Source: an uncultured bacterium (GTDB taxonomy: Bacteria; Planctomycetota; UBA8108; UBA1146). Taken from it: 36,880 nucleotides of DNA. Under the pieces are notes generated by a model. The model had not been told where the DNA came from, made no database searches, and saw only the letters and a list, made by a program, of their open reading frames with translations. Shown one piece after another: positions 1,394-35,053 of the stretch. Location: assembly GCA_913056395.1 (NCBI GenBank), contig CAJXMG010000027.1, positions 1 to 36,880 of the forward strand. Reading direction: 5' to 3'. Within the stretch, counting starts at the first letter, position 1. The number at the start of each line of letters is the position of its first letter. Both the position numbers and the translations under genes were made by a program.

Positions 1394-3094
1394 ATGAAGA
1401 AAAAAGTCGGAGAGATTCTCGTCGAGAAGGGCTGGGCAACCCCAGACCAAATCGAAAAAGCCCTGGCATACGGCAAGGCCGAGAATTGTCGGATCGGGGA
1501 AGCGCTGCTCAATTTGGAGCTCTGCTCCCAGGAGCAGATCACCCGTGCCCTCGCCATTCACAACCAGTTGCCCTTCGCGAACCTTGGCAAGCATGTGATC
1601 GCCCAGGACATCATCGATCTCGTCCCCAAAGAGGTGGCGATCGAAAACCAGATCATCCCCGTCGCCAAAAAGGGTGAGCGCCGTCTCGTTGTTGCCATCG
1701 GCGATCCGGATGATTACGCCTTCAAGCTCGACAACATTCGATTCATTCTTGGACTCGACCTCGATTGTGCACTGGCCATGCCGGATGCCATCGAAGAGGC
1801 GCTGGACGACTACTACCGCCTTGCGGGGGGATATGACTCCGTTCTCGGTGAGGACGCCGGTTCTGACGAGGATGTCGAGTTTGGTCGCGGGGAATACACA
1901 GGTGACGACGCCGATGCCAACGACGCTCCTGTGATCAAACTGGTGCACATGATCATCGCCAACGCTCTCAAGAGCGGAGCGTCCGATATTCATATCGAGC
2001 CTATGGAACATCACATGCAGGTTCGTTACCGCATCGACGGTGTTTGCCAGGTGATGGATTCTCCGCCGAAGAAGCTTCAGGGCCCGGTGCTCTCGAGGGT
2101 CAAGATCATGTCGCGTATGGACATGGCAGAGAAGCGGAGACCGCAGGACGGTCGAATCAAGATCAAGATTCAGGGTAAAGAGATCGACCTTCGTGTGTCG
2201 GTGATTCCCACGGTTCATGGCGAGAGCATCGTCATGAGGATTCTCGACAAGGACGCCGGACTGGTGGACCTTGAGAAATTAGGATTCCACGAGTCGGACC
2301 TGAAGCGCTTCAATCGCATCATCAAACGACCGAACGGCATCTTCCTGGTCACGGGCCCGACCGGTTCGGGTAAGACGACCACCCTGTACTCGGCACTGAT
2401 GAACCTCAACAAACCGGATACCAAGATCATCACCGCCGAGCACCCGATCGAATACAACCTCACCGGAATCAACCAGTCCGAGGTGAGACACGAAATCGGC
2501 CTCGACTTCTCGCGAATCCTGCGCGCCATGATGCGTCAGGCACCGAATATCATCCTCGTCGGTGAGATTCGAGACCGGGAAACGGCGGACACCGCGATTC
2601 AGGCGGCGCTGACCGGTCACCTGGTCTTCTCCACCCTTCACACCAACGACGCTCCTTCGGCCCTGACCCGACTCATCGACATGGGTGTGAAACCGTTCCT
2701 GGTTGCATCTGCGGTGCTGTCGATCATGGGTCAGCGCCTGATCCGTAAACTTTGCCCTGCCTGTAAGGAACCTTACGAGCCGGCAGAGACCGAATTGCGC
2801 ATGATTGGCCTGACCTCTTCGGAGGTTCAGGGACAGGAGATCTTCCGACCGGTGGGCTGTGACAAGTGCTCCGGTGGATACAAGGGTCGACTGGGTATCT
2901 ATGAGCTTCTGGAAATGTCTCCGGACCTTCGTGACCTGACCTTCAACAAGGCGGTGGCCAAGGATTTGAGAAACAAGGCTCGCAGCGAGGGCATGGTGAC
3001 CCTCCAGGAGGACGCGGTCAGGAAACTGCTCGCAGGAATCACTTCCGTGGAAGAGATCCTTCGTGTGACCCACTCCTCGGAGTTCGCCGGATAA
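1394..3094 (+). CDS. gspE: GspE/PilB-type secretion or pilus ATPase, divergent paralogue 1
   Basis: This 566-residue protein has an N-terminal MshEN/T2SSE-N domain (about 1-145), an acidic linker, and a GspE-family hexameric ATPase domain. Members of the family power assembly of type IV pili or type II secretion pseudopili from the cytoplasmic face. Visible motifs are Walker A (GPTGSGKT, about 320), Walker B (IILVGEIRD), the His box STLHTNDAPS, and a zinc tetracysteine (C454, C457, C489, C492). Two usually acidic positions differ: the Asp box reads AEHP (His350 where Asp is normal), and RQAP replaces RQDP (Ala383). The finger loop GGYKGR is also one residue shorter than in the next gene. ATG with purine-rich AAGGGAAGG upstream. 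It heads an operon with the second ATPase and a GspF protein. Pilus versus type II secretion cannot be decided here. Confidence 0.93.
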   Translation: MKKKVGEILVEKGWATPDQIEKALAYGKAENCRIGEALLNLELCSQEQITRALAIHNQLPFANLGKHVIAQDIIDLVPKEVAIENQIIPVAKKGERRLVVAIGDPDDYAFKLDNIRFILGLDLDCALAMPDAIEEALDDYYRLAGGYDSVLGEDAGSDEDVEFGRGEYTGDDADANDAPVIKLVHMIIANALKSGASDIHIEPMEHHMQVRYRIDGVCQVMDSPPKKLQGPVLSRVKIMSRMDMAEKRRPQDGRIKIKIQGKEIDLRVSVIPTVHGESIVMRILDKDAGLVDLEKLGFHESDLKRFNRIIKRPNGIFLVTGPTGSGKTTTLYSALMNLNKPDTKIITAEHPIEYNLTGINQSEVRHEIGLDFSRILRAMMRQAPNIILVGEIRDRETADTAIQAALTGHLVFSTLHTNDAPSALTRLIDMGVKPFLVASAVLSIMGQRLIRKLCPACKEPYEPAETELRMIGLTSSEVQGQEIFRPVGCDKCSGGYKGRLGIYELLEMSPDLRDLTFNKAVAKDLRNKARSEGMVTLQEDAVRKLLAGITSVEEILRVTHSSEFAG

Positions 3095-3142: not shown

Positions 3143-4852
3143 ATGGCGATTACATCCCAGCCACTCGGACAGATCCTCAAAGAGATGGGGAAAATCTCCG
3201 AACTGGATATCCAGGAAGCGCTGCAGACCCAAAAAGACAAGGGTGGAGCCATCGGCAAAATCCTCGTCGACAAGGGACTGGTCAACGACGATGACATCCG
3301 TCTGGCCATCGCCCGTCAATCGGGCATGGAACCGGTCGATCTTGGCGAAGTGGTCATGACTGCAGACCTGCTCGATATGGTTCCCGCTCATGTGGCGGAA
3401 ACCTATCAGGTGATTCCAGTCGATTTCGATGGCAGTGTTCTGACCCTGGCACTTGCAGATCCGCAAAATGTCAGCGCACTGGACGATATGAAGTTCATGC
3501 TCAACGTCGACGTCAAGGGTGCACTCAGCGACCCCGCTGCCGTCGAAGCCGCACTGGAGAAGTACTACTCTGATCGTTCGGAATCGATGGAGAGTCTCCT
3601 CGGATCGATGGACGGCGGCGACATGGAAGTGATGGACGACAATCGTCACGAGATGATGGATATGGATCAGCTGGAGAAGGACGTCAATGCGGCGCCCGTC
3701 GTCAAGCTGCTCAACATGGTGCTGCTCTCCGCGATCAAGGACCGAGCCTCCGATATCCACCTGGAGCCGTTCGAGAAAGAATTCAAGATTCGCTACAGGG
3801 TCGACGGCGTTCTCTACGAGATGATGCCGCCACCGATTCAGCTGGCTCGCGCCGTGATCTCGAGGGTCAAGGTCATGTCCAACCTGGACATCGCTGAAAC
3901 CCGATTGCCGCAGGACGGTCGTATCGAACTCAACATTGCCGGCCGCCCGGTCGACTTGCGTGTTTCGACGCTGCCGACGATGTACGGCGAGTCGGTCGTG
4001 ATGAGGGTTCTCGACCGTGGCCAGGTGTCACTGGATCTGGAGAACATCGGACTGCGTTCGAAGGATCTCGACATCATTCGCAAGCTGATCATGAAGCCGA
4101 ACGGCATCATTCTGGTGACGGGGCCGACCGGTTCGGGAAAAACCACCACCCTGTATTCGTGCCTGAATGAAGCGAACAATCCGGAGACGAAGATCATCAC
4201 CACCGAGGACCCGGTGGAATACAACATCGATGGCATCGTACAGATTCCCATCAATGAAGAGATCGGCGTGACTTACGCAGCCTGTCTGCGTGCTATTCTG
4301 CGTCAGGACCCGGACAAGATTCTCGTTGGTGAGATTCGTGACCTGGAAACGGCGCAGATCGCTGTTGAGGCGAGCCTCACCGGTCACATTGTGTTCTCCA
4401 CCCTTCACACCAACGACGCACCTTCTTCGGTGATTCGACTCGTCGACCTGGGAGTCGAGGCGTTCCTGCTGACCGCAACGGTCGAGGCCGTCATCGCCCA
4501 GCGTCTGGTGAGAAGGGTTTGCACCGGCTGCAAGGAGGAGTTCGAACCTACCGATGACGTGCTGATGGAGTTGGAACTGACCCGCTCCGATGTTCAGGGC
4601 CGCACCTTCTTCTACGGAAAAGGCTGCAAGGTCTGTAACGGATCGGGATACAAGGGACGAATCGCCCTCTTTGAGATCATGCTGATGTCGGACCGGATCC
4701 GCGACATGATCATGGACGGTGCCAGTACCCAGGAATTGCAGAATGCGGCCCGTGAGGAGGGTATGCAGACCCTTCGCGACGCAGGCCTGATTCACATTTA
4801 TGACGGGGTGACCACGATCGAGGAAGTCGTCAAGGAGACCATCGTCAGCTAG
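3143..4852 (+). CDS. gspE: GspE/PilB-type secretion or pilus ATPase, canonical paralogue 2
   Basis: This 569-residue paralogue of the preceding protein has the same layout: MshEN-type N-domain (about 1-150), then the GspE ATPase core. Walker A (GPTGSGKT) lies near 327, the Asp box is intact (TEDPVEY, Asp356), RQDPD carries Asp389, Walker B is ILVGEIRD, and the His box is STLHTNDAPS. The C-terminal zinc finger has CTGC and CKVC pairs followed by GSGYKGR. All expected catalytic residues are present, unlike its neighbour. A GAGGTGACAA element precedes the ATG, 48 nt after the first gene's stop. It is probably the active motor of the pair, with GspF downstream as its inner-membrane partner. Confidence 0.95.
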   Translation: MAITSQPLGQILKEMGKISELDIQEALQTQKDKGGAIGKILVDKGLVNDDDIRLAIARQSGMEPVDLGEVVMTADLLDMVPAHVAETYQVIPVDFDGSVLTLALADPQNVSALDDMKFMLNVDVKGALSDPAAVEAALEKYYSDRSESMESLLGSMDGGDMEVMDDNRHEMMDMDQLEKDVNAAPVVKLLNMVLLSAIKDRASDIHLEPFEKEFKIRYRVDGVLYEMMPPPIQLARAVISRVKVMSNLDIAETRLPQDGRIELNIAGRPVDLRVSTLPTMYGESVVMRVLDRGQVSLDLENIGLRSKDLDIIRKLIMKPNGIILVTGPTGSGKTTTLYSCLNEANNPETKIITTEDPVEYNIDGIVQIPINEEIGVTYAACLRAILRQDPDKILVGEIRDLETAQIAVEASLTGHIVFSTLHTNDAPSSVIRLVDLGVEAFLLTATVEAVIAQRLVRRVCTGCKEEFEPTDDVLMELELTRSDVQGRTFFYGKGCKVCNGSGYKGRIALFEIMLMSDRIRDMIMDGASTQELQNAAREEGMQTLRDAGLIHIYDGVTTIEEVVKETIVS

Positions 4853-4918: not shown

Positions 4919-6154
4919 ATGGCGGTATTCGAGTTCGAAGCCATTGGACCCGGCGGACAAAAGAAGCGCAGCACCATCGAGGCGGCCAACCAGGCCGAGG
5001 CGATCAAACAGTTGCGGTCCCGGGGATTGAAGCCGACGAAGATTCGCGAGAGCAAAAAAGCTGCTGCCGGTGGCGGTGGCGACGGCAAAAAGAAGAAGGG
5101 TGGCGGCCTCTTCGGCGGCAAGGTCACTCAGGCAGATCTGGTCCAGTTCACCCAGCAGTTGGCGACCCTGCAGGATGCAGGATTGCCCATCGTGCGATCC
5201 CTGAAGATCCTCGCCGACCAGATGAAGCCGGGCACCTTCCAGAATCAGCTTAACGCTGTGACGGACGATGTCGAAGGGGGTTCAACCCTTTCCGAAGCTC
5301 TCGAAAAGTACCCAAAGACTTTCGACACCCTGTTTGTGGCGATGGTCAAGGCCGGTGAGGCCGGTGGTGTGCTCGATACAATTCTTCAGCGTCTTTCCGA
5401 CTTCCAGGAGAAGTCGATGAAGCTGCGCAAAAAGGTGCAGGGTGCCATGGTGTATCCGGTCGCCGTCATCTGCGTGGCTGCGCTGATTCTCGGATTCATC
5501 ATGACTCAGGTGATTCCCCAGTTCCAAAAAATGTTCGCCGACATGAACACTGCCCTTCCCGGCCCGACCCAGGCACTGCTCGGCTTCGCCGAGGCGGTGC
5601 AGAATTACTGGTGGGCCGCTCCGCTGGTCATCATGGGCATGATTGGTTCCCTGAAGGCATTGGGCAGGACCAATGCCGGTGAGTTGATGATCGACAAATC
5701 GAAATTGAACGCGCCCATCTTTGGGCAGATCGTCAAAAAATCGACGGTCTCGCGATTCTGTCGCACCTTGGGAACCCTGATCAGTTCCGGTGTGCCGATT
5801 CTTGAAGCCCTGGAAATCGTGCGGGCAGCGGTCGGTAACAGGGTGATCTCGGACGCCATCGAATCGGTTTGCGGTTCGATCCGTGAGGGTGAAACCATCG
5901 CTGAACCGCTGGGCAGTTCCGGTGTTTTCGATCCGCTGCTGGTCAACATGATCGACATTGGTGAGGAAACAGGTGAGCTGGACAAAATGCTCAACAAGAT
6001 CTCTGACAACTACGATCTGGACGTCGACGTGCTGGTGGATTCACTCTCCAGCCTTCTCGAGCCGGTCCTGATCGTGGGCATGGGAGGTGCGGTCGGATTC
6101 ATCGTCGTCGCGCTGTTCATGCCATTGCTTTCGATCATTCAGAAGGTCGGATAA
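4919..6154 (+). CDS. gspF: GspF/PilC-type inner-membrane platform protein
   Basis: The 411-residue product starts with the family's short N-terminal domain (FEFEAIGPGGQKKRSTIEA and the following Leu-rich helix). A Lys/Gly-rich linker at about 45-65 leads to two tandem T2SSF domains (about 70-195 and 275-395). Hydrophobic segments lie near 178-200, 226-245 and 375-400, as expected for the polytopic platform protein that couples the GspE/PilB ATPase to the pilin or pseudopilin fibre. AGGAG sits 8 nt before the ATG. The gene is 66 nt after the second ATPase and is followed by a strong terminator, so it ends the operon. No pilin, prepilin peptidase or secretin gene is nearby; these must be encoded elsewhere. 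Confidence 0.94.
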   Translation: MAVFEFEAIGPGGQKKRSTIEAANQAEAIKQLRSRGLKPTKIRESKKAAAGGGGDGKKKKGGGLFGGKVTQADLVQFTQQLATLQDAGLPIVRSLKILADQMKPGTFQNQLNAVTDDVEGGSTLSEALEKYPKTFDTLFVAMVKAGEAGGVLDTILQRLSDFQEKSMKLRKKVQGAMVYPVAVICVAALILGFIMTQVIPQFQKMFADMNTALPGPTQALLGFAEAVQNYWWAAPLVIMGMIGSLKALGRTNAGELMIDKSKLNAPIFGQIVKKSTVSRFCRTLGTLISSGVPILEALEIVRAAVGNRVISDAIESVCGSIREGETIAEPLGSSGVFDPLLVNMIDIGEETGELDKMLNKISDNYDLDVDVLVDSLSSLLEPVLIVGMGGAVGFIVVALFMPLLSIIQKVG

Positions 6155-27700: not shown

Positions 27701-27852
27701 AGTATTTCTAAAGTGTTCCCAATTAACATCTTGTGAGTAATCGTGATTTCGGAGCGTCCATAAACTTTACGCCCGGAGCCCTTGCCGATACCCTAATTGT
27801 CAGAATTCGTTACGGTCCCAAAGGTAGGGGACATCGATCAGGGAGGACTCCC

Positions 27853-30800
27853 ATGAGTGAAGAATCATTGACCCGCTCGTCCGATGAGGCAGCGATCACG
27901 CTTTTGCCCAGACAGCAGATTCTCAAAGATTTGAAGAACTGGATTCATGAGGGCCATGACCCGCGTGAGGATTCGGACTCCAAGTCCCCCTGCACTCTGA
28001 CTCTGGTCAAGGGGGCGGCGGGCCTCGGCAAATCCCGATTGATTCACGATGCATTGTCGGCAGATGCGGTCGACACAGATCTGCCCCTTCTCTGTTGCAG
28101 GGTCCAGTGTCATGAGCGACAGGGAATTCCGTTTCTGCCGGTCCTGCGTCTGATCAAGGATCTGATTCTTCAGAGTGGCGAGGAATCTGCCCTCTGGAGG
28201 CGTTATGCCCACGTTCTCGCCAGAGTTTTCCCTGAACTTCGGGAGGAGTTGGGCGAGGATGTCCTGACACTTCCTCTCCCCGGTCACAGTGGCCGTATCC
28301 AGTTCCATGAGGCCCTGGGAGAAATCCTCTTTGAGTTGGCTCAGGGAAGAACCCTGATCCTGGTGCTTCATGACCTTCACCGCAGTGATCCGGGAACCAT
28401 TGAGTTCGTCGAGTTTCTGGCCAGAAACAGCTCCCTCTCCAGCCAGCAGGGCAGTGCCGAAGGGCCCTTGGGAGGCGCGACAGATACCCGCGATTGGAAG
28501 CACATTCGAGCCAGAGAAGGACGAGCGGGAGAGTTCGCTTCCTCGATCATCGAGGCCGAGGCCTTCGATCAGGAATCGGCGGAACCGGGTGGAAGATTGC
28601 TGCTTCTCGCCGATCACGGTCAGGGTGAGGACAACTGCAAGACGAGCCAGGCATTGCAAGGCCTTTCGCTACAACCCTTCTGCCAAACCGTTGAGATTCC
28701 GGCCTTTGAGACAGAAGAAGCGACCCCTTTCCTGGAGGAATTGCTGGAAGGGGAAGTTTCTGCGGAAATCTCGACCCTGATCAGCAATGCCTGTGATGGA
28801 AATCCGCTGTTGATCAGCGAGTTGGGCCGCCTGTTGTCAGAGTCTGGAGTGGCCTCACCCATCGAAGAGGAAAACGTGCAGGCACTGGTGGAAAGTGCCG
28901 GCAGCAGTTCGATGACCACCGTGCTGGTCGAGAGAAGACTTGCGGCACTTCCTCCTCTGGAGCGCAAGGTTCTGGAGCACCTCGCCATGCTCAGGAGGCC
29001 GGTGCAGTCGGCGTTGCTGGCGAAATCGTGTGCGGTGACAGAGGAACGTTTGATCTCTGCCCTGGAGGATCTGAACCGGAGGGGTTACCTGTTGATCCAG
29101 GAGATCCAGAACAAGGTTCGGTACTCGATCGCCCATGAGATGTACCTTCAGGGAGTACGTGATTTTCTCGGCAACGACCAGGCGCGACGCCTTCAGGCTG
29201 ATTTGGGCAAGGCCCTCGCTGAAGACGAGCGCAGTGGCGACCCGGTGAGAGCCTATGAAATTTTTGAACTGCTCAGTGCTGCGGAACAATTCACGGCCGC
29301 GATCCCTCACGGAATGGTGGCGATGCGATTCTTCGCCAGCGCATATGCTGAGCCACTGGCCATCGACATCGGTCGCAGATTGTTGCCGCATGTGGAGGGT
29401 GAAGCGGGTTCCCCCGAGCGCAGGGAGATTTTGTCCACCCTCGCCAGAATCGAACTGGAGTCCGATCAACCCCAGGCCTCCAAGACCCACATCAAGGCAC
29501 TCATCGCCGAGTCGGGGCTCGATCCGGTCATTCGCTACGAATCACAGGTGTTTCTCAGCAACATCTATCTGCAGATCAATGAGCCCCTGAAGGGAATCAA
29601 GGTTCTCAACAGGGTCTCCAATGCAGAGCTGGAGGCAGCAGGGCCTCTTTCCCATGCGCGGGTCAGCACGATGCGTGCGAAACTGCGTTTGAAAAGACTC
29701 GATATCAAACGTGCGATGAGCTTGTGTCTCAGGGCACAGAAAGAGATTTCGGCGGTTGAAGACCATCCGGAAGCCGTCGCACTGCAATGCCAGATCCATG
29801 AGGTCACTGCAGAAACCCACCTTGCGAGGGGGGATTCCGCAGCAGCACTGAACAGTTATCAAAGGGTTCTCGAATTGGTAGAGGAGAGGGACGATGCGGT
29901 CTCTCTTGGGACCCTGTTGCGTACGATCGGCAGGGTTTACTACGACCGGGGCAAGCATTTCCGCGCCGCACGCTATCTGTTCCGTGCGATGGAGGTGGTC
30001 GAAAAGACCCAGGATCTCAAGTCTCTTGCAGCGACCTACGACCTGCTCGGAAAAATCTATCGCAACAGTGGTGATTTCTCTCGCAGCCTGGGTTACTTCC
30101 GCAGGGCACTCCATTTGAGTGAACGTATCGGTGATTCTGCTGAAATCTCTCCCACCCTGAATTCCATCGGCAGTTTGCACGCCCACTCCGGGGATTACTC
30201 CAGAGCGGTGCGATACTTCAAGAGAAGTGTTTCCAACAGCGAGAAGCAGGGAAGTACCCGAGGCATCGTGCAGTCATTCCTGCATTTGGGTTGGACCTGG
30301 TTTGCTCTGGGTGAACGCAAGCAGGTGGAGAATCTGGTACGCCAGATCCTGATCCTGTCACAGGAATTCGACATGCCGGAGAATCAGGCTGAGGGACATC
30401 GCCTGCAGGGTAATCTCGCTCTCTTGCGAGGGGAGTGGAAAGCCGCTGCCAAGGAATTGAAAAAGGCGGAGGAACTGTCCCTGAAAAGGGGCTCGGAGCG
30501 AGTGGTTGCTGCCAGTTGCTTCGATCAGGCCCAGTTGGCCATCGAGCAGGAGCAGTACGAAGCGGCATTGAAAGTCGTGACCCGCGGAATGGTGACCGCT
30601 GAATCGTTGCAGTCGGTACCGTTACTGGTGCGGGGTTTCCTGTTGAAGGGGGCCATCGCTCGCCAGAGGAATGAAGACGGGCACGAGAAAGCGCTCGAAA
30701 ATTACGAGAAGGCTCTTCAGATGATCACGGGGGATTCCCTGTTGCCGTTGCAGTGGCAGATTCATTACGCGATGGCACGGGTACTCCACGCCACACATGA

Positions 30801-32199
30801 AATTGAGGGTGCGAGAACCCATTACGAGCGTGCTTCTGCGCTGGTGGAGAGAATTTCCCAACGCTTGCCCGAGGATATGAGAGTCGTCTTCAGGGACGAT
30901 CGACGCCGCAAGGATTTCTTCACTGACCTGATGAGATTCCGTAAAGAGACCGCCACTGTGATGCCGGTTCCTCAAGTGGCGGTTCCTGAGGAACGTACAG
31001 ACAATGTTTCTGAGAACCCCGCGGTAGAGGATGCTCCGGTTCAGGAGTTGGGTCACCACGCCTACTTCCAGACGATGCAGGTGTTGGGACAGCATCAGGA
31101 GTTGAGAGCTTTTCTCGCGGGATTGCTCGAAGAGGTTCGTCGTGTGGTGCCGAGTCCCAGGGGCTTTATCGCTGCGCGCCGTCGTCGGCGTTGGCAAAGT
31201 CTGGCCGATGTGGACATGGGACCCGAAGAAGACTGGTTGCCACCCCAGCATGCACTGGGTGGGTTGGCTCAGGAGAGTCTTTCCCGAGGCAGTGCCCTTC
31301 GCAGCGGTGATTCGGATTGGGACGCTTGGGTAGAAAACCATCCGGCGGGAAGCTCGCTCAGGGGAAGAAGCCTGCTGGCGGTTCCTTTTGAGGCTTCAGA
31401 CCTTTTCAGTGCAGTTCTCGTTCTGGAGAGGCCGACCGCAGGTCACCCTTTCCAGCCACAGGAATTGGACCGGATCGGCGAGATGATGTCCCTGGTCCGC
31501 GGTCAACTCGCTGCCCTTGCCCGAACCGCAGACCTTCTCGAATACGAACAAAGCGAGATCGGATCACGGGCAGCTTTTGATGACGATCTGGGCGAGATGC
31601 TCTTCCGTCATCAGAGGGACAAGGAGCCCCTCGGATTTATGGAGATCAGCCTTCCGGGCCTCGATCTGCTGTTGCGCGATCGTGAAGACGAGTTGTTCGT
31701 ACGCAGCCTGATCGAAACGCTTCAGCCGATCCATGGTGTTTACCACACTGGAGGTGACCACCTGATCTGTTCCCTGATCGGTACCGGTGAAGAGAATCTG
31801 CGCAAGCGCTGCAAGGATCTTCAGCATGTTCTCCAGGATCTGCGTGAAAAGTTCAGCTTGCCAGTGGATGTGGCTGTGACGGTTCTGCCTCATTGGTTCG
31901 CAGTCGCTTCTGCGGAAATCTCCTCTCTGGCCTCGAGTGGAAGTGAGTTCTTCCGGGCGGGTTCACAGCCGGACCTGGATCAGGAAGTGGCCAGTTTGAC
32001 TTCAGGGGAGATGTCCCTGAAAGAGGCAAAGGCTGCATTGGAGAAGCGATACATTATCGCAGAACTGTTCCGTTCCGGCGGAAACATAACGCGTGCGGCT
32101 GAGGCCCTCGGGATTCACAGACCGCAGCTTTCCAATCTGCTCAAACGGCATGACATCCGCAAAGAGGATTTTGAAGGCGAGTCCGGTCGAAATTCCTGA
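27853..32199 (+). CDS. Large STAND-like ATPase-TPR-GAF-GGDEF-like regulator with a Fis-type DNA-binding end
   Basis: This 1448-residue signalling protein looks like a transcription regulator driven by an NTPase switch. An AAA_16/STAND ATPase (about 15-440) has Walker A GAAGLGKS (54-61) and a Walker B-like LILVLHDLHRSDP (about 165-177); a winged-helix-like segment (about 365-440) follows. TPR repeats span about 500-1010 (for example GDFSRSLGYFRRALHLSERIGD). A GAF-like domain lies at about 1070-1230. A degenerate GGDEF-like domain (about 1238-1360) reads GGDHL in place of GGDEF. The C-terminus (about 1396-1436) is a Fis/NtrC-type helix-turn-helix, GGNITRAAEALGIHRPQLSN. The ATG at 27853 has GGGAGG 6 nt upstream. 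There is no kinase domain, unlike PknK-type proteins. Ligand and targets are unknown. Domain calls beyond the ATPase, TPR and HTH are less certain. Confidence 0.85.
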   Translation: MSEESLTRSSDEAAITLLPRQQILKDLKNWIHEGHDPREDSDSKSPCTLTLVKGAAGLGKSRLIHDALSADAVDTDLPLLCCRVQCHERQGIPFLPVLRLIKDLILQSGEESALWRRYAHVLARVFPELREELGEDVLTLPLPGHSGRIQFHEALGEILFELAQGRTLILVLHDLHRSDPGTIEFVEFLARNSSLSSQQGSAEGPLGGATDTRDWKHIRAREGRAGEFASSIIEAEAFDQESAEPGGRLLLLADHGQGEDNCKTSQALQGLSLQPFCQTVEIPAFETEEATPFLEELLEGEVSAEISTLISNACDGNPLLISELGRLLSESGVASPIEEENVQALVESAGSSSMTTVLVERRLAALPPLERKVLEHLAMLRRPVQSALLAKSCAVTEERLISALEDLNRRGYLLIQEIQNKVRYSIAHEMYLQGVRDFLGNDQARRLQADLGKALAEDERSGDPVRAYEIFELLSAAEQFTAAIPHGMVAMRFFASAYAEPLAIDIGRRLLPHVEGEAGSPERREILSTLARIELESDQPQASKTHIKALIAESGLDPVIRYESQVFLSNIYLQINEPLKGIKVLNRVSNAELEAAGPLSHARVSTMRAKLRLKRLDIKRAMSLCLRAQKEISAVEDHPEAVALQCQIHEVTAETHLARGDSAAALNSYQRVLELVEERDDAVSLGTLLRTIGRVYYDRGKHFRAARYLFRAMEVVEKTQDLKSLAATYDLLGKIYRNSGDFSRSLGYFRRALHLSERIGDSAEISPTLNSIGSLHAHSGDYSRAVRYFKRSVSNSEKQGSTRGIVQSFLHLGWTWFALGERKQVENLVRQILILSQEFDMPENQAEGHRLQGNLALLRGEWKAAAKELKKAEELSLKRGSERVVAASCFDQAQLAIEQEQYEAALKVVTRGMVTAESLQSVPLLVRGFLLKGAIARQRNEDGHEKALENYEKALQMITGDSLLPLQWQIHYAMARVLHATHEIEGARTHYERASALVERISQRLPEDMRVVFRDDRRRKDFFTDLMRFRKETATVMPVPQVAVPEERTDNVSENPAVEDAPVQELGHHAYFQTMQVLGQHQELRAFLAGLLEEVRRVVPSPRGFIAARRRRRWQSLADVDMGPEEDWLPPQHALGGLAQESLSRGSALRSGDSDWDAWVENHPAGSSLRGRSLLAVPFEASDLFSAVLVLERPTAGHPFQPQELDRIGEMMSLVRGQLAALARTADLLEYEQSEIGSRAAFDDDLGEMLFRHQRDKEPLGFMEISLPGLDLLLRDREDELFVRSLIETLQPIHGVYHTGGDHLICSLIGTGEENLRKRCKDLQHVLQDLREKFSLPVDVAVTVLPHWFAVASAEISSLASSGSEFFRAGSQPDLDQEVASLTSGEMSLKEAKAALEKRYIIAELFRSGGNITRAAEALGIHRPQLSNLLKRHDIRKEDFEGESGRNS

Positions 32200-32252: not shown

Positions 32253-32299
32253 AAAAAAGAAGGAAGCCCGGTGTGTGACACCGGGCTTCCTTCTTTTCG
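32253..32299. terminator. Bidirectional terminator between the regulator and histone-fold genes
   Basis: A perfect 18-bp stem (32257-32274 with 32278-32295) closes a 3-nt loop, with A-rich and T-rich flanks. It serves the convergent genes on both sides. Confidence 0.93.
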
Positions 32300-32323: not shown

Positions 32324-32512
32324 CTAGCAGGTGAAGTCGTGAGCTCGAACGGTCTTGCGACCATTCTCAGTGGCACGCTTGGCTGCCTGCTGGATGTAGT
32401 GATGAATCACACTGTTCAGTCCATCGAGGGCATCTCCGCCAACATTGACATCGTGCTCCTTGAGAGCAGCCTTGGCCTTGCTTCCGACGAGAAGCATTTC
32501 TTGTTCAGCCAT
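32324..32512 (-). CDS. Bacterial single-histone-fold protein
   Basis: This 62-residue protein matches the layout of bacterial histones such as Bdellovibrio Bd0055. A short N-terminus ends in LLVGSKAKAALKEHD (helix 1). The conserved GGDALDGLNSVIHHYIQQA starts the long helix 2, then RATENGRKTVRAHDF holds the loop, the conserved Arg-Thr region and a short helix 3. The RKTVRAHDF end is characteristic of histone folds. Such proteins dimerise and bind or coat DNA; DNA binding here is inferred. The ATG has AAAGGA about 6 nt upstream. The gene is monocistronic, with its own long upstream region and a shared terminator downstream. A Cys ends the protein, which is unusual. An open frame on the other strand is spurious. 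Confidence 0.88.
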   Translation of the reverse strand: MAEQEMLLVGSKAKAALKEHDVNVGGDALDGLNSVIHHYIQQAAKRATENGRKTVRAHDFTC

Positions 32513-32861
32513 GGTGTTCCTTTCCTGCCCTCTCAGGGATCAATTTCCCTCTTCGAGGACCTACTTGGTACCGTTCAAATCAAAGAAATCGGCTCAGGAG
32601 CCCTCCGCTGACCCCACCGAAAACATTGAAACCCACTTCCTGGCATGTCGCCCTGTGCGGAACAGGGCAGGAGGCGTGCCTCACGTCTAGAAGGATAGCC
32701 GCCACCGGTCTGAAAAAGAAAGAGAGAATTAGGCGATTTTTGCCCATCAAATGGGGGTATTGCCCGATTCATGAAAAAGGGGGGCTTCCTGGCTGTGTCG
32801 TGGAAGCCCCCCCTCGAGTATGCGGGAAATGTCTTAAGTTCTTATTTTGTTTAGATTTGCG
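32513..32861. other. Upstream region of the histone-fold gene
   Basis: This 349-bp region has no gene. It contains several small hairpins, notably GCCCTGT/ACAGGGC (32650-32668) and GGCTC/GAGCC near 32591-32602, which on the minus strand would lie in the leader of the histone-fold mRNA. The terminator of the fatty-acid gene occupies 32774-32813. No convincing -35/-10 pair was found for the histone-fold gene. Confidence 0.5.
32774..32813 (-). terminator. Rho-independent terminator of the hydroxyacyl-CoA dehydrogenase fusion gene
   Basis: GGGGGGCTTCC (32779-32789) pairs with GGAAGCCCCCC (32802-32812). On the minus strand the stem is followed by TTTTT (32778-32774). It lies about 50 bp after the stop codon at 32862. 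Confidence 0.88.
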
Positions 32862-34907
32862 TTATGCGTTGACGAATTTTGCCGGAGTTCTGGGTCCATT
32901 CTCAAGGAAGTTGGTGACGCCGATGCGCATATCCTGAGTTGCACAAACTTCCCCAAAAAACCGAGCTTCCAAGGCGATTCCCTCTTTCAGAGGCAATCTG
33001 CACCCCTCGATGATGGCACTTCGCAGGATGCGATCCACCTCAGTTGAGAGGTGTCCCAGATCCGCTTCGGCGAGTTCATCGGGAGTTTGCAGGGGGCCAC
33101 TTTCAATCCCCTTGAAGGGGGCATCACCACGGATGGCTCCGTGAAGGAGTTCGGTGGCACGGCGGCGAAGGGCACGGGGGTCTCCGGGGACCTCTTCGGA
33201 AATGAGTCCGATGGCCAGTGCCTCGGCGGAAGAAATGGGACGTCCGGTCCGCATCAATTCGGCAGCCTTTTCCACTCCGACCCAACGGGGGAGTCTCTGG
33301 GTTCCACCCGCTCCTGGAATGATGCCGAGGTTGACCTCCGGTTGGCCGACGAAAACCTTGAGTCCCGCGCGGGCGATTCGCACATCGCAGGCCATGGCGA
33401 TTTCATTGCCCCCCCCGAATGCGAGTCCATTCATCGCGCAGATCACCGGCTTGGGGCAATCTTCGATGGCTTGAACGGAAGCCTGGGAACCACTGGAGGT
33501 TTCCTCGCCCATCTTTGCGGAATCAATCTTTGCCAGGAAGCCGACATCAGCACCGGAGACAAACGCCTTGACGCCAAACCCTGTCAGCAACACTCCGTCG
33601 ATGGCGGAATCTTGACTGATCTCCTTGAAGTGGTTCTCGATCTGCAAAAACGCTTCATTGTTGAGCGCATTGAGGTGACGGGGCCTGCGGACGACGACGT
33701 GGGCGATGGATCCATGATCCTCCCGAAGAACAAGGGGGATCGGGAAGGGGGTACCCGTCGCAGCCTGATCGGCGAGGCACTGGGGAACCGGGAAGCCCGG
33801 ATGTCCATCGGCGTACTTTTTCGCCAGTGCCAGTGACTCCTCCATACCGAGAGAATTCATCAGGCGGAAGGGAGCCTTGACGTCGAGGGCGGTTTCCACA
33901 GCCATGTCCATGTCAGCCACATTGGAAATACCACTGTCGACGATCTCTCCGACGATGCCGAAGTAGGCACCCAGAAGTGCGTCACGGACGGCAGCAAAGG
34001 TCTCTTCGGGAACCTCGACCTTTTCGCCACGAGCAGGGACTTCCCACGCCGTCTCATCGGCGACCGCCTTGCGCAGGATTTCCGGGGTCCGGTACCAGCT
34101 GTGGATCTTCTCGTTGTAGTTGTCGAGTCCAACCGCAGTGATGGGGTTTCCACCGGTGAGGTTCATGGCCGTGAAGGGACCGACGGTGTAATCGAGAACG
34201 TCGCAGGCCACCTGATCGACTTCGCGACTGGAGGCGACTCCCTCTTCGACCAGAAGAGCGGCAGCCAGGAACATGCCCTCGAAGACGGGGTCGATGGCGT
34301 AGCCGTAGCGGCTACCGACCTTGATCGGGATTTTGCCGATGGCTTCGTAGAAGCCCATCATGTCGTGTGCCAGTTCACCATTGGTTTCCTTACCGGGCAC
34401 GATTTCGACGATGGGGTTCCGCTCCGCAGGGAAGAAGTAATGGACCACCATCGTTCTGCCAGGGTTGGAAATGCCGTGGAAGATCACTTCCGGCTCCAAG
34501 TGGGAGGAGTTGGAACAGAGGACCGCATCTTCTGCGACCAGTTCCTGAACCTGAGAAAAGATTTTTCCCTTCAGGGCCTTGTCCTCTGTCGCTGCTTCGA
34601 CGACCAGATCGCAACCAGCCAGTTGCGAGTAATCTGAAGTGAAGACGACTCCATTTTTCATCTTCTCGCCCTGTTCAGAGCGGAAGGCTCCCGATTCCAC
34701 TCCCCGGTCGACCTTTTTATTGAGTTTGGATCGACCTCGTTCGAGAGCGTCTTCAGAGATGTCGACCACGACCACCGGAACATCGGCGGGGGAGAACACC
34801 TTTGAGAAGTGAAGGGCGATGTCGGGACCGATTTGCCCGGAGCCGATGACGCCGATGCGTTTCACCGGTTTGCCCAAAATGTCGATCATGGGTGATTCGG
34901 AACTCAT
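32862..34907 (-). CDS. 3-hydroxyacyl-CoA dehydrogenase / enoyl-CoA hydratase fusion, dehydrogenase first
   Basis: This 681-residue bifunctional beta-oxidation-type enzyme has its dehydrogenase half at the N-terminus: the NAD-binding GVIGSGQIGPDIA, VVEAATED, SNSSHL, then a helical domain to about 380. The crotonase half (about 420-680) shows the oxyanion-hole segments NGLAFGGGNEIAMACDVRIA and GIIPGAGGTQRLPRWVG, with Glu and Gly positions typical of hydratases. FadB and FadJ have the opposite order. The same order as here is known from archaeal crotonyl-CoA hydratase/3-hydroxybutyryl-CoA dehydrogenases. Substrate chain length is unknown. The ATG is preceded by GGAGG 7 nt upstream. Monocistronic, with its own terminator. 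Confidence 0.9.
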   Translation of the reverse strand: MSSESPMIDILGKPVKRIGVIGSGQIGPDIALHFSKVFSPADVPVVVVDISEDALERGRSKLNKKVDRGVESGAFRSEQGEKMKNGVVFTSDYSQLAGCDLVVEAATEDKALKGKIFSQVQELVAEDAVLCSNSSHLEPEVIFHGISNPGRTMVVHYFFPAERNPIVEIVPGKETNGELAHDMMGFYEAIGKIPIKVGSRYGYAIDPVFEGMFLAAALLVEEGVASSREVDQVACDVLDYTVGPFTAMNLTGGNPITAVGLDNYNEKIHSWYRTPEILRKAVADETAWEVPARGEKVEVPEETFAAVRDALLGAYFGIVGEIVDSGISNVADMDMAVETALDVKAPFRLMNSLGMEESLALAKKYADGHPGFPVPQCLADQAATGTPFPIPLVLREDHGSIAHVVVRRPRHLNALNNEAFLQIENHFKEISQDSAIDGVLLTGFGVKAFVSGADVGFLAKIDSAKMGEETSSGSQASVQAIEDCPKPVICAMNGLAFGGGNEIAMACDVRIARAGLKVFVGQPEVNLGIIPGAGGTQRLPRWVGVEKAAELMRTGRPISSAEALAIGLISEEVPGDPRALRRRATELLHGAIRGDAPFKGIESGPLQTPDELAEADLGHLSTEVDRILRSAIIEGCRLPLKEGIALEARFFGEVCATQDMRIGVTNFLENGPRTPAKFVNA

Positions 34908-35053
34908 TGGAAAACCTCCGTTAAAGAACGGTTCAAAACAGACAAGTCCGGGGATTGTAATCAATGGGCGGAAAGCCATCACCCCCACCGGGCATTTCCG
35001 TCAAAAATCGCTGAACGGAGTGACGGTGTCAGGGGTTTAGCCCACGGAATCGA

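Follow-up and report, generated by a model that had tools for sequence, protein, structure and literature searches.

A tailless, cysteine-ending FtF-type histone encoded behind a conserved RNA leader in uncultivated planctomycetes

We report that a 62-codon gene of an uncultured planctomycete encodes a histone which, on its residues and its predicted fold, is of the face-to-face type (FtF; HLp/HTkC-type) rather than a dimer histone of the Bd0055/HBb type. In the window, that is, the whole stretch of DNA analysed (36,880 nucleotides of contig CAJXMG010000027.1), the gene occupies 32324..32512 (ATG 32512-32510, stop 32326-32324), and the preliminary description was right to place an open reading frame for 62 residues there, on what proves to be the minus strand; its product is MAEQEMLLVGSKAKAALKEHDVNVGGDALDGLNSVIHHYIQQAAKRATENGRKTVRAHDFTC. 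The FtF type is known in Planctomycetota, where such histones have already been listed (PMC11390915), and the new aspects are the tailless form ending in Cys and the structured leader that precedes the gene.

The gene is real and under strong purifying selection. A chance open reading frame is unlikely because intact relatives occur at 77 loci of the genome collection, dN/dS within the genus is ~0.02-0.06 with synonymous sites near saturation (dN 0.025 and dS 1.19 between the window and locus L006), and each of the 16 family genomes searched holds one histone copy. The sole genome searched from another family of the order (n=1) had no histone, and across a phylum sample 121 of 392 genomes matched it at E <= 1e-4. 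The window protein falls within a supported clade of family members (tree support 100/93); so short a protein settles deep forks poorly, and we therefore make no claim about origin or transfer. The source assembly is a planctomycete genome of 2.77 Mb, and the nearest named records, Planctomycetota MCMED-G47 and Planctomycetia TMED53, would be marine to judge from their names. Upstream of the start codon, the ribosome binding site noticed earlier is borne out as the Shine-Dalgarno sequence AGGAAAGGA (32518..32526, minus strand), within which GGGCAGGAAAGG is invariant in the genus.

The AlphaFold monomer (pLDDT 92.4) is a single histone fold, as had been proposed, and its best match in the PDB is HLp of Leptospira perolatii. 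Foldseek placed HLp first (rmsd 0.8-0.9 Å, TMt 0.94-0.95, 44-45% identity), followed by HBb and by the archaeal HTkC (rmsd 0.9-1.2 against the AF2 monomer). The same order was obtained with phmmer against solved structures (HLp 1.9e-9, Bd0055/HBb 3.3e-4, HTkC 0.007) and with a profile of 47 members (8.4e-19, 1.2e-13 and 4.2e-12, respectively), HLp leading HBb by 16 bits in both searches. The match to bacterial histones expected from profile searches was thus obtained with HLp and HBb, and not with the library models for histones, as Pfam PF00808 (archaeal nucleosomal histone) scored 13.2 bits against a cut-off of 21.4 and NCBIfam NF043032 scored 24.7 bits against a cut-off of 50. A DUF1931 pseudodimeric histone, in which two folds are fused in one chain and DNA-binding residues are missing, was considered and ruled out by the length of 62 residues, the presence of one fold and the retention of DNA-contact residues.

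The FtF signature comprises R41, N45, R47, T49 and D54 in Haloferax numbering, and in bacterial-dimer histones the R and N that belong to the interface between dimers are missing (PMC11390915). In the window protein the signature is found with identical spacing as R46, N50, R52, T54 and D59; the interface residues R48/N52 of the HMM numbering correspond exactly in spacing to R46/N50, and the RxTxxxxD motif of loop 2/alpha3 is present as R52-K-T54-x4-D59. Among 47 aligned relatives R46, R52, K53, T54, R56, H58, D59 and F60 are invariant, N50 is conserved in at least 90%, and so is each of K12 and K14, which supply the alpha1 lysine (HMM K16). The shortened alpha2/alpha3 of an FtF-like fold are likewise seen in the AF2 monomer. 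In HLp, the tetramer residues are R49/N53/R55 and the DNA contacts are K15/K17/K21/G29/T57 (PMC12701072), and these align with R46/N50/R52 and with K12/K14/K18/G26/T54 of the window protein.

The protein had been compared with Bd0055, and a dimer histone of that kind, bending DNA as a dimer, would fit in several respects: Bd0055/HBb (Bdellovibrio, PDB 8FVX, 8CMP) shares the single fold, a similar length, the alpha1 lysines and RKT (K53 here), coexists with HU, was the runner-up in every search, and has counterparts among Planctomycetota (PMC11390915). Yet HBb has S and D where the window protein carries R46 and N50, two positions that its relatives keep invariant or nearly so, and it scored lower throughout. 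Bd0055 was therefore a close comparator but not the best one, HLp being nearer by sequence, by fold and by tetramer-interface residues, and we regard a Bd0055-like dimer as very improbable. Because the class-defining R46 and N50 are present, the FtF assignment is preferred.

HLp (PDB 9QT0-9QT2; PMC12701072) resembles the window protein in length, fold, the R-x3-N-x-R-x-T-x4-D signature and the alpha1 lysines. Unlike the window protein it bears a tail at the N-terminus, and its chain stops at Phe (F63), two residues short of the window protein, and its T27, S52, T56 and T61 are replaced here by V24, E49, K53 and H58. The settings differ as well: Leptospira is without HU, whereas the planctomycete genome has two HU genes, and hlp lies beside smc/map, whereas the window gene lies beside FadJ-like and AAA/TPR/HTH_8 genes. 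HTkC (Thermococcus kodakarensis, PDB 9F2C; 32-34% identity) is also a tailless single FtF fold, but it is archaeal, coexists with hypernucleosome histones and has no C-terminal Cys extension. Closer in sequence (55-76% identity, with the same signature) are uncharacterised bacterial FtF-like histones from Planctomycetota, Myxococcota, Acidobacteriota, Krumholzibacteriota, Elusimicrobiota and Bdellovibrionota (L015-L071), although these mostly bear lysine-rich N-terminal tails, have no terminal Cys and, in those searched, no leader element. The record 'Euryarchaeota archaeon SP339' (L072:4800-5180) encodes a fused tandem histone with two consecutive folds in one chain, each bearing the FtF signature (RAEQNGRKTVRAHDF and RAESNGRKTIRGHDF).

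A lysine-rich N-terminal tail is present in most bacterial relatives outside the clade and absent from the window clade, in which five loci (L002-L004, L006, L007) have an in-frame stop codon six codons before the start. With a pI of 6.9 and a charge of -0.15 the chain is close to neutral, whereas most of the tailed relatives checked carry about +5 to +15, and a weaker affinity for DNA is therefore predicted. The terminal Cys noticed earlier is a clade trait: Cys stands last or penultimate (after HDFx) at 13/13 clade loci and at 0/64 others. In the two genomes of genus g3, which belongs to the same family, the N-terminus is short and basic and the Cys is absent. A genome-wide check for HU/IHF-family genes, suggested in the preliminary description, found two in the source genome, and nearly all family members likewise carry two, so the histone is one among several candidate architectural proteins. 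With its missing basic tail, its charge of about zero and its clade-specific Cys, and with two HU genes to do the bulk packaging, the protein could be a specialised histone fold, acting as a DNA-binding factor of low affinity or under redox regulation or as a protein-interaction factor. The Lys, Thr and Arg residues that contact DNA are nonetheless kept, and we consider such a specialised role unlikely.

We favour instead a histone that packages DNA alongside HU, and the proposed working is as follows. Two 62-residue chains would form a head-to-tail dimer of the alpha-3 histone kind, and contacts made by R46 and N50 at the end of alpha2, and by R52 in loop 2, would hold a pair of such dimers together on both sides, closing the tetramer. 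Non-specific wrapping of DNA round this tetramer would use K12, K14 and K18 of alpha1, G26 of loop 1 and K53, T54 and R56 of loop 2, in the manner of HLp, whose tetramers wrap about 60 bp (PMC12701072). By analogy with HLp, a tetramer wrapping DNA non-specifically is the most likely form; it rests on residues and homology, since the structure prediction was of a single chain, and the replacement of HLp S52 and T27 by E49 and V24 is a counterpoint to it, as is the two-residue extension. In FtF histones the last carboxylate takes part in a dimer-dimer salt bridge (PMC11390915), and as the C-terminal carboxylate sits in the interface, an extension ending in Cys is placed to matter: the two extra residues, ending in Cys62, would adjoin the dimer-dimer interface and may adjust it or lock it by redox. 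The protein would be a core single-copy nucleoid protein, and the folded leader of its mRNA, found in this lineage alone, would probably contribute to setting its level. Taken as a whole, this explanation, from tetramer and DNA wrapping to the role beside HU and the tuning by Cys62 and leader, seems to us likely, although the near-neutral chain, the library scores below cut-off and the presence of HU count against it, and the probable nucleoid role suggested at the outset was judged to be supported.

The gene had been described as stand-alone, and it does form a single-gene unit. On one side, a terminator with a near-perfect stem-loop and T runs on both strands (32255..32297) is common to the histone gene and to a convergent gene for a 1488-residue AAA_16/TPR/HTH_8 (Fis-type) regulator (27733..32199, plus strand); on the other, a terminator-like hairpin in the sequence, GGGGGGCTTCC...GGAAGCCCCCC-TTTTT (32779..32813, minus strand), follows the upstream gene for a 3-hydroxyacyl-CoA dehydrogenase/enoyl-CoA hydratase (3HCDH/ECH, FadJ-like; 32862..34988, minus strand). 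Because terminators separate it from both neighbours, we take the histone gene to be monocistronic. A probable -10 box, TATCCT (32692..32697, minus strand), lies 185 nt before the ATG and is kept at all loci but L013, and a generic promoter scan missed this candidate. The order HAD, esterase, FadJ-like, histone and convergent AAA/TPR/HTH_8 is conserved in four genera and persists down to 46% neighbour identity. One record labelled 'Bacillota bacterium MAG 7' (L012) contains the histone locus of planctomycetes, with its full gene order and the leader, so that its contig or its taxonomic label is probably wrong. Elsewhere in the window, two adjacent GspE/PilB-like secretion ATPase genes (1394-3094 and 3143-4852) are followed by a GspF/PilC-like gene (4919-6154), all named by eye.

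Between TATCCT and the histone ATG lies a leader element of ~90 nt with two stem-loops (window 32588-32673, minus strand). Stem-loop 1 (32636..32673) has an outer helix, an inner helix GCCCUG/CAGGGC, the loop UUCCGCA and a 3' bulge, GACAUGCC, in which CAUGCC is invariant; stem-loop 2 (32589..32620) consists of an outer helix UCGG/CCGA, an inner helix GGGGUC/GGCUCC and the loop AGCGGAG. The long structured upstream region of the preliminary description thus stands as regards this conserved element, but not as regards its overall folding energy, which is ordinary for the whole 291 nt (z = -0.22). Three genera carry the leader ahead of the histone gene, as does a fourth on assignment by eye (L013). 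A covariance model built from two sister genera alone located the element in the window genus, in the orthologous position at each of its loci (E 2.6e-5 to 1.4e-3 over 381 kb), and the leader is the top covariance-model match in its whole own genome.

In 12 sequences, 92% of cells pair and 12 of 22 pairs have changed on both sides. This set scores 0.547 for covariation, where shuffles score 0.304 +/- 0.026 and slid partners 0.07-0.15; the value leans towards the structure because the alignment was fitted to it. When only the two sister genera were aligned, without such fitting, the result was weaker but in the same direction (0.164 versus 0.119, 2/500). Folded individually, with no alignment, seven sequences of stem-loop 1 and six of stem-loop 2 share one design, in which an inner hairpin is accompanied by a bulge on the 3' side (in L013, in the centroid). 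The inner helix of L013 is much longer, with the CAUGCC bulge at the same junction, and the models miss this locus. RNAalifold missed stem-loop 1 in the MAFFT alignment that had not been fitted (A2), owing to a one-base difference in loop length; the individual folds do recover it. Pairs of G-U in the standard orientation outnumber A-C (32 cells versus 8), a bias in favour of the histone-sense strand. In every sequence the two apical loops complement each other, by at least 3 Watson-Crick pairs and by up to 7 in L005, and the covariation test for kissing of these loops, with a p of about 0.06, is no more than suggestive.

Convincing matches to a pooled model were confined to the histone leaders of family members, in one of which (G009) leader and histone gene lie at contig ends, and in a sample of 149 genomes of the phylum no other genome matched at E <= 0.01. 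Four further candidates were rejected: a second match within the source genome (C41) overlaps an antisense coding frame and one in a sister genus (L126) overlaps, on the opposite strand, a cobalamin riboswitch, both being chance matches, and two weak ones lie inside open reading frames (L127) or away from any histone locus (L128). The riboswitch itself (L126:1299-1546; Rfam RF00174, 76 bits) mimics the leader model on its reverse strand. No Rfam family matched the leader at its gathering score, the weak matches near the gene falling only on or around the terminator hairpin, and a literature search retrieved no description of a planctomycete histone leader. Whether the leader is an undescribed cis-regulatory RNA that adjusts histone synthesis we put at about an even chance; histone autoregulation and a ligand switch are our two leading guesses at its purpose. 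In that case it would be, within the library and literature searched, the first control element acting at the RNA level to be described for any bacterial histone; the leader is also the part of the locus most worth following.

Bacterial histones are a young and sparsely sampled field, and to the best of our knowledge HLp is the sole bacterial FtF histone to have been characterised. Across a whole family of uncultivated, probably marine planctomycetes that keep HU, a predicted FtF histone belongs to the core genes, fixed and in single copy; with both proteins encoded in the same genomes, it can be tested whether histones of this type take the place of HU or operate next to it. Since the clade has naturally lost the basic tail and gained a terminal Cys, what tail and interface each contribute to the wrapping of DNA becomes testable, and the structured leader raises the question of how histone dosage may be controlled in bacteria.
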